A stretch of 64,000 nucleotides of DNA from Acidobacteriota bacterium. Lineage in GTDB: Bacteria; Acidobacteriota; Terriglobia; Bryobacterales; Bryobacteraceae. Numbering within the stretch: position 1 is the first letter of the stretch; each line of letters begins with the position of its first letter. The position numbers and the translations under genes were made by a program. Where the stretch lies: contig JAPKZB010000078.1 of assembly GCA_026393985.1 (NCBI GenBank), positions 1-64,000 of the forward strand, in the 5' to 3' direction. The notes under the pieces are model-generated. The model searched no databases and was not told the origin of the DNA. It saw only the letters and a program-made list of their open reading frames with translations. This document shows, piece after piece, positions 40,206-44,016 of this stretch.

Positions 40206-40279
40206 TGGCTGGGAGACAGGGATTCGAACCCCGATAGGCAGAGTCAGAGTCTGCAGTCCTACCATTAGACGATCTCCCA
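40206..40279 (-). tRNA. tRNA-Gln (anticodon CUG)
   Basis: Minus strand, 74 nt including an encoded CCA. The acceptor stem TGGGAGA/TCTCCCA is perfect (7 bp), the D-arm has TCTAATGGTAGGAC and the T-arm has GGGGTTCGAATCCC. The anticodon stem GCAGA/TCTGC encloses loop CTCTGAC, which gives anticodon CUG for CAG codons. Discriminator base G. It stands between ppx and the DUF1592 gene, possibly transcribed with the ppx gene upstream. Confidence 0.97.
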
Positions 40280-40302: not shown

Positions 40303-41832
40303 CTACGAAGCCAGCTCCAGCACCAAGTCGCGACCGTAGATTTGCAGGAAGATATCGGCGACGCGCTCTCCGGCCCAGAGTTCGAGGTTGATGTTGCCCT
40401 CTTCTTCCAGCAGGATGGTGACGGTTTTCGGGGTAATCTGGACGCGGGCGGATTCGGCGTGATGGTCTGGGCTGCCGGCGAGACTGTCGGCGAGGCGGAC
40501 GATGGGGACGAGGCAGAGGACCGTTTTTTTGACGGCGGCGGTGAGGTCCTGGAAGAAGCCGTGGCGGGCGCTGGGCATGGACTTGCGGTGGAATCGGCAC
40601 AGGAGGGCGATGGTGAGGCGCTCTTCGTTGGTGAAGGCGGGCAGATCGCCGTTGGCCACCAGGTAGTAGCTGTGTTTGTGGTGCGCCATATCACTGACGT
40701 AGTGGCCGGAGTCGAGGAGGTAGGCGGCAGCTTCGAGGAGCCGACCGGCGGCGGCGGGCAGTTGGTGGAGCGGTTGGAGGCCGACAAAGAGCGAGTTGGC
40801 GAGGCGGGCCGTTTGGCGGGCGTGCTTCATGTCGACGGCGTAGCGGCGGGCCATGGCTTCGATCACCTGGCGCTGCTCCTTGCTCATCCGCGTGAGGTCA
40901 CTGCCGCTGCGGCGTTCAGCGAGGTCGGCGATGATGCCATCGCGAACGCCGGCGGCGGAGTAGAAGACCTCGCCTTGCCCGTAGGCCTTCAGGATCCGGT
41001 GGAGGACGCTGATGCCGGCGATGATGATTTCGGCGCGGCGGGGCCCAATGCCGGGGACTTTGCGCCGCGCGGCCAGAGGGGAGTTGGCGAGGAAGTTTTC
41101 GAGTTCGCCAATATCGGCGGTGCGGGCAGAAAGGCGGTCGGCTTGGTCGCGCTCCTTGCGGGCTATTTTGTTCAGGGCGCTAACGACGGCGGCGGCGGTT
41201 GAGGAGGTGGCGATGGCGCGGTCGAAGGGTCCGGGACCGGTGCGTTTCAAGGCGGGGGCGAGTTTTTCGTCGATGTAGGCAGAGAGGCGTTCGCGCTGTT
41301 CGCGGGCCGGGGGGTCGGCATCGAGGAACATTTCGGTGAGGCGGACGGCGCCGAGGGGGCGAGAGATGGCGCTTTCGAGCTTTCCTCCGTCGGAGACGAT
41401 CACTTCGGCGCTGCCGCCGCCGATATCGATGAGCAGAACGCGTTGGTCCGGGTGGGGCCAGACGGCATGGACGCCGGCGTGGATGAGGCGCGACTCTTCG
41501 AGGCCGGAGATGATTTCGACCGGGGCGCCGAGGGCCTGACTGGCGCGGTAGAGAAACTCTTCCTGGTTACGGGCATCGCGGACGGCGCTGGTGGCGACGG
41601 CGCGCACGCCGGTGGCGCCGAGGCGATGATAGGTATCGGCAAAGCGGGCGAGCGTGCGGACGAGCAGTTCCATGGCCTCTTTGGAGATGGCGCCTTCGGT
41701 GAAGACGCTGGTGCCGAGGCGGGTGACCTCGCGTTCGGCGGCGAGCATTTTCACGGGTTCGCCCGGGTTGACCTCGGCTACGGCGAGGCGGGTGGAGTTG
41801 CTTCCAATATCAATGGCGGCGTAGCGGGGCAT
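40303..41832 (-). CDS. Ppx/GppA-family phosphatase with HD domain
   Basis: 509 residues. The N-terminal actin-like fold is complete: AAIDIGSNSTRLAVAEV, VATSAVRDARNQEEFL, GLEESRLIHAGV, VLLIDIGGGSAEVIV and AGISVLHRILKAYG. Next is an HD-type helical domain (~320-500; LDSGHYVSDMAHHKHSYYLV), as in E. coli Ppx/GppA. The family removes phosphates from polyphosphate or pppGpp, controlling phosphate storage and the stringent response. Which substrate applies cannot be told. No ppk gene is near. The gene is divergent from the thymidylate-kinase-like pair, 60 bp away. Confidence 0.94.
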   Translation of the reverse strand: MPRYAAIDIGSNSTRLAVAEVNPGEPVKMLAAEREVTRLGTSVFTEGAISKEAMELLVRTLARFADTYHRLGATGVRAVATSAVRDARNQEEFLYRASQALGAPVEIISGLEESRLIHAGVHAVWPHPDQRVLLIDIGGGSAEVIVSDGGKLESAISRPLGAVRLTEMFLDADPPAREQRERLSAYIDEKLAPALKRTGPGPFDRAIATSSTAAAVVSALNKIARKERDQADRLSARTADIGELENFLANSPLAARRKVPGIGPRRAEIIIAGISVLHRILKAYGQGEVFYSAAGVRDGIIADLAERRSGSDLTRMSKEQRQVIEAMARRYAVDMKHARQTARLANSLFVGLQPLHQLPAAAGRLLEAAAYLLDSGHYVSDMAHHKHSYYLVANGDLPAFTNEERLTIALLCRFHRKSMPSARHGFFQDLTAAVKKTVLCLVPIVRLADSLAGSPDHHAESARVQITPKTVTILLEEEGNINLELWAGERVADIFLQIYGRDLVLELAS

Positions 41833-41892: not shown

Positions 41893-42624
41893 ATGCAATT
41901 ACTGACGCCGAATCGATTCAAGGGCAAGCTGATTATCGTCGAAGGGATTGATGGCTCCGGGAAGTCCACGCAATTGGCGTTGCTCAGTCAGTGGCTGCGG
42001 GCGCAGGGCCTGGCGGTGGCTTTTAGCGAATGGAACTCTTCGCCCCTGGTGCGGGATACAACGCGACGGGGCAAGAAGAAGATGATGTTTACCCCGACGA
42101 CCTTCAGCCTGATCCACGCCACGGACTTTGCCGACCGGCAGGAGCGCTACATCATTCCTCTCTTGAAGGCCGGGGCGGTGGTCTGCGCCGACCGGTTTGC
42201 CTATACCGCCTTTGCCCGGGACGTGGTACGCGGGGTGTCGCCGCGCTGGGTGCGGAATCTCTACCGTTTCGCCATTCAGCCCAATCTGGCATTCTATTTC
42301 CGGGTGCCGCTTGAAGTGGCGCTCGGCCGCATTCTGGGCGGGCGGGATTCGATCAAGTACTACGAAGCGGGAATGGACTTGAATCTCTCGAAGCGAGTGG
42401 AGGAGTCCTTTCGCATCTTTCAGGGCCGGATTCTCGAGCAGTATGAGGCAATGATCGAGGAGATGGGGTTTCATGTCATCGACGCCTCGCGGTCGATTGA
42501 GGAGCAGCAGTTTCAGATGCGCCGGATTGTGATGGAGCATTTGGGCGACGCCGTCGCCAGCGGACAGATTTTGAATCAGGAGGGCACGGCCCATGTTTTC
42601 GAAGCAGCCACTCCAGTTCTATAG
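41893..42624 (+). CDS. thymidylate kinase-like protein, intact P-loop
   Basis: 243 residues of the TMK family, which turns dTMP into dTDP with ATP. The P-loop is EGIDGSGKSTQL, the DR motif is VVCADRFAYTAFARDV, and the lid-like segment contains GGRDSIKYYEAGMDLNLSKR. It is longer than typical bacterial TMK (about 210 residues). ATG 41893 was preferred over TTG 41875, which overlaps the -10 box. The gene is followed, with a 32-nt overlap, by a paralogue. It could be the housekeeping dTMP kinase or a kinase for another nucleotide. Confidence 0.85.
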   Translation: MQLLTPNRFKGKLIIVEGIDGSGKSTQLALLSQWLRAQGLAVAFSEWNSSPLVRDTTRRGKKKMMFTPTTFSLIHATDFADRQERYIIPLLKAGAVVCADRFAYTAFARDVVRGVSPRWVRNLYRFAIQPNLAFYFRVPLEVALGRILGGRDSIKYYEAGMDLNLSKRVEESFRIFQGRILEQYEAMIEEMGFHVIDASRSIEEQQFQMRRIVMEHLGDAVASGQILNQEGTAHVFEAATPVL

Positions 42625-43318
42625 CGAGCCACTTCCGGGGGTGGACACCTCCGAGTTGCAGGGCAAGTTGATCGTCGTCGAAGGTCCGGATGCGGTGGGC
42701 CGCAGCACGCAGGTGGCCCGTTTGAAGGCCTGGCTTGAGCAGCAGGGCCACGCGGTGCTCGATACGGGCATGGCGCGGAGCGCGCTGGCGGGTAAGGGGA
42801 TCGCGCAGGCCAAAGAGGGGCACACGCTGGGTTCGGTGACGATGACGCTGTTCTACGCCACTGACTTTGCGGATCGCCTGGAAAACGAGATTATTCCGGC
42901 TTTGCGGGCCGGATTTGTCGTGTTGACCGACCGGTACATTTTTTCGCTGATGGCGCGCGGCATTGCGCGGGGCGAGGACAGTTCGTGGATGGAAAAGGTA
43001 GCCGGCTTCGCCCTCGTGCCCCATGCGGTTTACTACCTGCGGGCGGAGGTGCCGACGCTGATTACCCGGACCGTGATGGGCCGCGGGCAGTTCGACTTCT
43101 GGGAAAGCGGCATGGACATGCGCTTTGGCCCGGACATGTACGACAGCTTCGTGCGCTACCAGGCGCGGGTGATCCGGGCGCTCGACCGGATGTCGATGCG
43201 ATACGGATTCGTCACGGTGGACGCGGCCAAGCCGGCCGACACGATTTTTCGAGAGTTGCAGCGGCATATCGCCGGGCACTTTGCCCCGAAAAAACGGCCC
43301 TCACGGAAGGCGACTTAA
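42593..43318 (+). CDS. second thymidylate kinase-like protein, P-loop Lys replaced by Arg
   Basis: 241 residues, clearly paralogous to the preceding gene (same FYATDFADRLENEIIPAL, VVLTDRYIFSLMARGIAR and GMDMRFGPDMYDSF stretches). The P-loop reads EGPDAVGRSTQVA: the usual GK(S/T) Lys is Arg. In most P-loop kinases this strongly lowers activity, so the protein may be regulatory, part of a heterodimer, or an unusual kinase. AGGAGG precedes ATG 42593 by nine bases, although the gene starts 32 nt inside its neighbour. Its TAA shares a base with the next ATG (TAATG). Confidence 0.85.
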   Translation: MFSKQPLQFYSEPLPGVDTSELQGKLIVVEGPDAVGRSTQVARLKAWLEQQGHAVLDTGMARSALAGKGIAQAKEGHTLGSVTMTLFYATDFADRLENEIIPALRAGFVVLTDRYIFSLMARGIARGEDSSWMEKVAGFALVPHAVYYLRAEVPTLITRTVMGRGQFDFWESGMDMRFGPDMYDSFVRYQARVIRALDRMSMRYGFVTVDAAKPADTIFRELQRHIAGHFAPKKRPSRKAT

Positions 43319-44016
43319 TGCTGGCGGGGATTTTTCTGTCGATTCCGTGCCCGGACGTGGTGGAGATGGCGAGCCTGGCCGGCTGGGACTTTGTAGTGAT
43401 CGACACCGAACACGGGGCGATGGGGACCCCGCAGTTGCCGAACATGCTGCGGGCGGCGCGGGTGCCGGCGATTGTGCGGGTGGCAGGGCGAGCGGATGTG
43501 CTGCAGGGGGCGCTCGACGCGGGGGCCGATGGGGTGCTGGTGCCGCAGATCCATACGGCGGAGGAGGCGGCGGCGGTGGTGTCGGCGAGCCGGTTTCATC
43601 CGCGGGGCAAGCGCGGGTTGAACGGATTCGTGCGGGCGGCGGGCTACTCGCTGGTGCCGCTCGAGGAGTATATCGAACGGCCGGTGCGGGTGGTGATTCA
43701 GATTGAAACCATCGGGGCGCTGGCGGCGGTGGAGACGATTGCGGGGCTGCCGGGCGTGGATGAGCTGTTCATCGGGCCGTATGATCTTTCGCAGGCGCTG
43801 GGCCGGCCGGGCGATGTGATGCACGCCGAGGTACTGGGCGCGGGGCAGCGGGTGGTCAACGCCGCCCATGCCGCGGGCATCGCCGTGAGCGCGTTCGCCA
43901 ATAGCCGCGAGGCCGCCGACCGCTGGCGGGAGATGGGGGTGGACCGGCTGATGTACTCGGCCGACGCCAACATTCTGGCGCAGGCGCTGCGGCGGGTACG
44001 CGACGAGTTGCGCTAA
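43318..44016 (+). CDS. HpcH/HpaI-family aldolase
   Basis: 232 residues, class II aldolase of the HpaI/rhamnonate-aldolase family. Key segments: FVVIDTEHGAMG (base), ARVPAIVRVAGRADVLQGAL, GADGVLVPQIHTAEEA, VVIQIETIGALAA (metal Glu) and ELFIGPYDLSQALG (metal Asp). It reversibly splits 2-keto-3-deoxy sugar acids into pyruvate and an aldehyde. Start at ATG 43318 in TAATG overlap with the kinase paralogue. A longer in-frame start at 42985 lies inside that gene. Its tail overlaps the opposite unknown gene by four bases. Confidence 0.92.
   Translation: MLAGIFLSIPCPDVVEMASLAGWDFVVIDTEHGAMGTPQLPNMLRAARVPAIVRVAGRADVLQGALDAGADGVLVPQIHTAEEAAAVVSASRFHPRGKRGLNGFVRAAGYSLVPLEEYIERPVRVVIQIETIGALAAVETIAGLPGVDELFIGPYDLSQALGRPGDVMHAEVLGAGQRVVNAAHAAGIAVSAFANSREAADRWREMGVDRLMYSADANILAQALRRVRDELR

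Follow-up and report, generated by a model that had tools for sequence, protein, structure and literature searches.

A tandem of thymidylate-kinase-like genes in an acidobacterium of the class Terriglobia as a probable heteromeric polyphosphate kinase of the family-3 type

The locus

The window analyzed here is the whole 64,000-nucleotide stretch of contig JAPKZB010000078.1 (assembly GCA_026393985.1, positions 1 to 64,000 of the forward strand), from an acidobacterium of the class Terriglobia. It contains two overlapping genes, A and B, for proteins of the thymidylate kinase (TMK) family, the second of which carries Arg in place of the Walker A Lys. This raises the question of what reaction is catalyzed by such a pair, and what part in it is played by the member with the altered P-loop. 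The features of the locus are:

40303..41832, minus strand: Ppx/GppA exopolyphosphatase family protein, divergent, 60 bp upstream of A
41893..42624, plus strand: gene A, TMK-fold P-loop kinase of 243 aa, proposed catalytic subunit (cPPK3-like) (ORF, Pfam, model)
41941..41973, plus strand: P-loop of A, EGIDGSGKSTQ, with Lys24 encoded by AAG at 41962-41964
42593..42624, plus strand: 32 bp overlap of A and B, with AGGAGG inside A, ahead of B
42593..43318, plus strand: gene B, Arg-P-loop paralogue of A, 241 aa, proposed regulatory (pseudokinase-like) subunit (ORF, Pfam, BLASTP, model)
42680..42712, plus strand: P-loop of B, EGPDAVGRSTQ, with Arg37 encoded by CGC at 42701-42703

An earlier note on this DNA, made from the sequence alone, had described two overlapping TMK-like genes, one with a Lys and the other with an Arg P-loop and with the DRY and ATDFADR regions conserved, and this description holds throughout. 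The two products are 34% identical over 211 aligned residues (BLASTP, E 3e-43), and both match the Pfam family Thymidylate_kin (A 75.6 bits, B about 63.4-63.6 bits; cut-off 27), with the motifs HATDFADR and DRF in A and YATDFADR and DRY in B. The NCBIfam dTMP kinase model is narrowly passed by A (83.8 bits, cut-off 83.25) and failed by B (64.5 bits), so that automatic annotation would label A a dTMP kinase. Translational coupling of A and B is likely. The divergent neighbor matches two Pfam exopolyphosphatase-protein models (PF02541, 197.7 bits; PF21447, 88.8 bits) and the exopolyphosphatase model TIGR03706 at 260.4 bits, under its cut-off of 307. Between it and a DUF1592-type cytochrome protein gene lies a tRNA-Gln (CTG) on the minus strand (40206-40279). 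On the other side, an HpcH/HpaI aldolase gene (43318-44016) begins at the B stop codon. The aldolase was considered as a partner and rejected: among the loci compared by BLAST it follows B only in the window's own genus, which places it outside the general system.

Relatives of A and B

Full-length B is present in 41 of 61 genomes (the window's own genome and 60 relatives), in the same genus as well as in other families, orders and classes. A scan with the B alignment, taking one genome per species, returned 348 relatives; the loci used here are the best 80 of these, and the P-loops of the other 268 lie outside the counts given below. Record labels among these best 80 include Acidobacteria/Terriglobia/Blastocatellia, Deltaproteobacteria/Proteobacteria, Chloroflexi (including Ktedonobacteria), Planctomycetota, Armatimonadetes and Candidatus Melainabacteria.

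Separation from canonical thymidylate kinase

The pair is not the only candidate for a thymidylate kinase in its genome: a canonical tmk lies elsewhere (G000:C65:58409-58996, 166.7 bits). A maximum-likelihood tree (105 rows) places 18 canonical Tmk on one side of a branch with 100/100 support and 87 rows of A, B and related sequences on the other; simple redundancy of A and B with tmk was rejected on account of this separate clade. A and B each correspond to one change on the tree, with support of 87/88 for A and of 51/94 for B, the latter value supporting the single-group status of B only weakly. The EPGG and the A.QG after DR, which we take to be motifs of canonical Tmk, occupy positions conserved in 17 canonical Tmk; EWNSS and ARD stand there in A, and the motifs are replaced in B as well. 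Thus A and B share their fold and Pfam family with canonical Tmk, but differ from it in base-site motifs, clade and gene.

The predicted structures lead to an archaeal protein. The nearest fold to the A model (pLDDT 88.8) is Sulfolobus tokodaii st1543 (Z 28.8, rmsd 1.4 over 206 residues), as it is for the B model (pLDDT 89.7; Z 25.9, rmsd 1.9 over 205 residues); the next Tmk structure follows at Z about 24 for both, so that st1543 leads by a clear margin with A but by a small one with B. This protein (2PLR, 4NZY, 4RZX, 5H70) is about 48% identical to A and shares with it the motifs EWNSS, HATDF.DR, ARD and EAG.D. It was deposited as a dTMP kinase, yet falls on the A/B side of the tree, apart from canonical Tmk, and its motifs and position suggest a possible role as a subunit of a polyphosphate kinase.

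The polyphosphate kinase family PPK2 has a P-loop kinase fold related to that of TMK and a link to polyphosphate in common with A and B, but belongs to a separate Pfam family. Neither A nor B matched PF03976 (PPK2) in a Pfam scan with E up to 0.1, and A gave a very weak match (E 0.092) to the NCBIfam polyphosphate:AMP phosphotransferase model. PPK2 structures were absent among the 50 matches listed by Foldseek or VIA for the A and B models, an absence that excludes nothing. From the other direction, the nearest structures to Francisella tularensis PPK2 found by DALI, after other PPK2s, include 4NZY and 2PLR, that is, st1543 (PMC4748334). A plasmid search with A returned seven records, all of less than 33% identity, of which four are annotated as tmk and three are without annotation there.

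Association with Ppx and CHAD genes

Genes for Ppx or for proteins with the CHAD domain, which binds polyphosphate (PMC6537752), recur around the pair. CHAD and/or Ppx are found near it in 53 of the best 80 of the 348 relatives (flanks of about 8 kb per side at most), and in 21 of the 35 pair loci that have 5 kb or more of flank to either side. Thirteen of these 35 fully flanked loci are without CHAD, Ppx or PPK1 nearby, and one more has only a 59-bit match to a PPK1 fragment; the pairs of the six Ktedonobacteria picked for the comparison with PPK1 have no Ppx or CHAD in the flanks examined. Among the relatives' own loci, CHAD and/or Ppx accompany 10 of 16 pairs and none of 20 canonical tmk genes, these control loci (9 to 17 kb, mostly at least 15 kb, one 8.4 kb) being matched to the 16 pair loci and not to the 80. 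CHAD was identified by Pfam in 8 of the 10 neighbor proteins scanned, the other two being a metallophosphatase and a Ppx; the remaining CHAD and Ppx proteins were scored by profiles built from such loci, so that very divergent members could be missed.

In some loci (e.g. L101, L109, L124) the genes are arranged on one strand in the order A-B-Ppx-CHAD, a layout similar to that of the E. coli ppk-ppx operon, with ppk where A and B sit. The only CHAD match in the window's genome lies on another contig (C52:98239-98883); a PPK2 match (C52:89968-90645) lies about 8 kb from it. Near the PPK1 loci of 16 relatives, CHAD and Ppx were found only once (L179), so that a swap of PPK1 and the pair at one and the same locus was not seen. 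One of four further PPK1 loci (L180-L183) has Ppx, and in L180 (G311) an A/B pair lies about 7 kb away.

Distribution relative to PPK1 and PPK2

No match to PPK1 (PF02503) was found in the whole genome to which the window belongs. Across the 61 genomes, PPK1 occurs in 1 of the 41 with full-length B (G057) and in 16 of the 20 without it (Fisher 4e-10), and the contrast is maintained when only genomes with completeness of 90% or more and contamination of 5% or less are counted (1/30 vs 14/16; Fisher 7e-9) and at genus level (1/11 vs 16/20; p 4e-4). A sample of 297 genomes from the phylum gave PPK1 in 5 of 37 with B (G075, G080, G251, G311, G313) and in 166 of 260 without (p 5e-9), the presence of B being taken from listed matches by score and the 37 including one genome without A (G289); at genus level the figures are 7/28 and 85/140 (p 7e-4). 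The genomes behind these statistics are not independent. Two genera each contain both genomes with the pair and without PPK1 and genomes with PPK1 and without the pair (g32, G341/G239; g73, G232/G248, G302, G310).

Across phyla the relation is looser. Of 40 pair genomes drawn from the 80 loci, 18 have PPK1, among them all six Ktedonobacteria picked, and replacement is thus a tendency in Acidobacteriota and not a rule. Within these 40, PPK1 is absent from 15 of the 23 with Ppx- or CHAD-linked pairs and from 7 of the 17 with unlinked pairs. The missing PPK1 is not a plain annotation miss, as the same model matches in 7 of 14 control genomes. PPK2 occurs in 53 of the 61 genomes irrespective of the pair, with two matches in the window's genome; its presence was therefore rejected as a cause of the PPK1/pair pattern, and it could be an alternative polyphosphate maker in these genomes. 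Gene context and distribution together point to polyphosphate.

These results bear on the function implied by the earlier note's label. With a separate canonical tmk in the genome, A and B outside the canonical group, and context and distribution leading to polyphosphate, thymidylate kinase function is not supported. A broader version, in which A and B form a second nucleoside monophosphate kinase (for dTMP or a wider range of substrates) and are connected with polyphosphate genes only through shared phosphate or stress regulation, is unlikely: the canonical tmk is separate, the canonical TMK base-site motifs are replaced, and the Ppx/CHAD link and the complementarity with PPK1 speak against it, even though Pfam and NCBIfam rate both proteins as TMK-like, with A narrowly over the dTMP kinase cut-off, and the closest structure bears the name dTMP kinase in its deposition, ADP being bound in one of its entries.

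Fixed P-loop asymmetry and co-retention

The difference between the two P-loops is invariant. Lys is present in all 162 A copies counted and Arg in all 167 B copies, 165 of them directly and two (L102 and L118) once the reading frame is extended upstream past the first usual start codon. Loci overlap between the searches, and 131 A and 137 B sequences remain after removal of duplicates. The Arg of the 137 distinct B sequences is encoded by all six codons (CGC 83, CGG 26, CGT 17, CGA 8, AGG 2, AGA 1), so that it looks like a residue kept by selection and not a product of decay. Chance and a sequencing error or frameshift behind the Arg are excluded by the same counts, and a decaying duplicate by conservation across phyla. 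At five B loci (L060, L076, L120, L023, L126) A is missing from the count owing to the score threshold; in the first three it is split between frames with Lys still present, and in L023 (genome G033, 62% complete) it is without its first approximately 100 residues.

A and B are also retained together. Among the best 80 of the 348 relatives, 79 loci have the two genes as neighbors on one strand, and in most pair loci the two overlap if ORFs are taken from the first start codon; in the exception, L126 (a Melainabacteria record), the genome carries A and B on different contigs. No A-B fusion genes were noticed in the ORF tables of the loci inspected. One genome carries two A/B pairs, with GRSVQ in B (G147; L218, L219). 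The one B met without A is in G289 (96% complete; L234, G289:C59) and has the P-loop EGTDGVGRSTQ; a search of this whole genome with the A alignment found no A-type gene, only B and one canonical-type match, and the contig stops about 1 kb upstream of B. The earlier note had proposed a functional pair, perhaps a heterodimer with one regulatory subunit. Its maintenance as a pair is seen in the 79 loci and in the fixed asymmetry, with no Lys in any of the B copies read and the two genes widely, not rarely, conserved in relatives. Since normal ATP turnover is improbable for one member, these sequences would best be read as those of a heteromer in which one subunit is regulatory.

A related arrangement, here termed type II, is found in 13 acidobacterial loci (L034-L037, L205-L213), in which a Lys-type gene A' with the P-loop EG[PAL]DG[SA]GK[TS]TQ is followed in 12 by a partner gene, whose product of about 200 aa resembles B as a relative. 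In L211, where the contig ends early, no partner was found. The partner has no recognizable Walker A Lys motif, and contains a conserved YAADL.FRLRWEI-like motif. PPK1 is present in 11 of the 13 type II genomes, and no CHAD or Ppx was found in the stretches read. One genome (G170; L213, L214) has both an A/B pair and a type II pair. The type II partners fit a branch in which catalysis by the second subunit may have become dispensable.

Alternatively, A could act as a homodimeric polyphosphate-linked kinase, with B a separate Arg-P-loop enzyme working on another substrate; many positions of B are conserved, including DRY and EG.D..G.[ST], in excess of what a relaxed pseudoenzyme needs, and G289 has B with no A found. 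This division into two enzymes is nevertheless improbable, as B and A co-occur even when unlinked, P-loop kinases with Arg for the P-loop Lys are usually crippled in phosphate transfer, and the P-loop has been lost in the related type II partner. Least probable is a polyphosphate or nucleotide sensor controlling Ppx or CHAD in place of a metabolic enzyme, for which the altered P-loop in one subunit and the divergent or operonic placement with Ppx might speak, since the P-loop of A is complete and invariant, the active-site motifs are conserved, and PPK2 would be the sole polyphosphate kinase remaining to genomes that lack PPK1.

Likeness to the crenarchaeal enzyme and proposed mechanism

The combination of fixed asymmetry, co-retention and polyphosphate-related context resembles a kinase of Sulfolobus. 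As reported by Hofmann et al. 2026, saci_2019 and saci_2020 of S. acidocaldarius, annotated as thymidylate kinases and situated beside ppx, are said to form the kinase; Saci_2020 is reportedly inactive alone and regulatory or activating, Saci_0893 is reportedly the true Tmk, and polyP-to-ATP is said to be the favored direction. The likeness to this family-3 PPK lies in the tandem TMK-family genes, the nearby ppx and the separate Tmk, and the Lys/Arg asymmetry would agree with a division into a catalytic and an inactive regulatory subunit. A and B differ in being bacterial and in the divergent ppx of the window's genome, and may differ in the fixed Arg P-loop of B. On the archaeal side, the sequence comparison covered st1543.

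The polyphosphate kinase of Crenarchaeota was long missing (PMC7831078). A crenarchaeal PPK was characterized in Sulfolobus acidocaldarius by Hofmann et al. (J Biol Chem 2026, 302:111283; bioRxiv 2024.08.28.610084; cited in PMC11677633), and the crenarchaeal enzyme is described as a distinct PPK-type enzyme (PMC13318637). Biomining archaea have CHAD, PPX, SixA and a ‘dTMP kinase’ in one cluster (PMC10892726). The name ppk3 has also been applied to a Ruegeria enzyme listed under PPK2. A literature search found no paper on the bacterial A/B pair, which Hofmann et al. 2026 may cover.

In this acidobacterium of the class Terriglobia, A and B thus probably form a polyphosphate kinase made of two different subunits, a bacterial counterpart of the family-3 enzyme (PPK3) of Sulfolobus. 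For the activity, its substrate and direction, the heteromer and the regulation by B, we infer the following scheme. A, with its normal Walker A Lys, would pass phosphate in either direction between polyphosphate and a nucleotide, most likely ATP/ADP. B, in which the fold, DRY motif and P-loop shape are kept and Arg replaces the catalytic Lys, would most likely bind nucleotide or polyphosphate without efficient turnover, and would activate or regulate A within a TMK-like heterodimer, its role being non-catalytic and consisting in giving the dimer its shape or in sensing a ligand. The neighboring Ppx would remove polyphosphate and CHAD would bind it, and in lineages without PPK1 the pair may be the source of polyphosphate kinase activity. 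The pair tends to replace PPK1 in Acidobacteriota, and does so more loosely outside the phylum.

Implications

More tentatively, a Lys/Arg heteromer of the PPK3 kind could serve as the main polyphosphate kinase in much of Acidobacteriota and in members of several further bacterial phyla, with repeated exchanges between it and PPK1; on this extension, which we put forward as a possibility somewhat less likely to hold than to fail, the Arg P-loop of B would be a conserved non-catalytic sensor of polyphosphate or nucleotide, and st1543 a member of the family and not a Tmk. If A and B are a polyphosphate kinase, genes that would receive the label dTMP kinase in many bacteria would in fact encode polyphosphate kinases, and the handling of polyphosphate in lineages lacking PPK1 would be explained. 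The fixed Lys/Arg pair would provide a sequence test for distinguishing catalytic from regulatory subunits, and A and B would offer a ready system for the study of pseudokinase control of a P-loop kinase.
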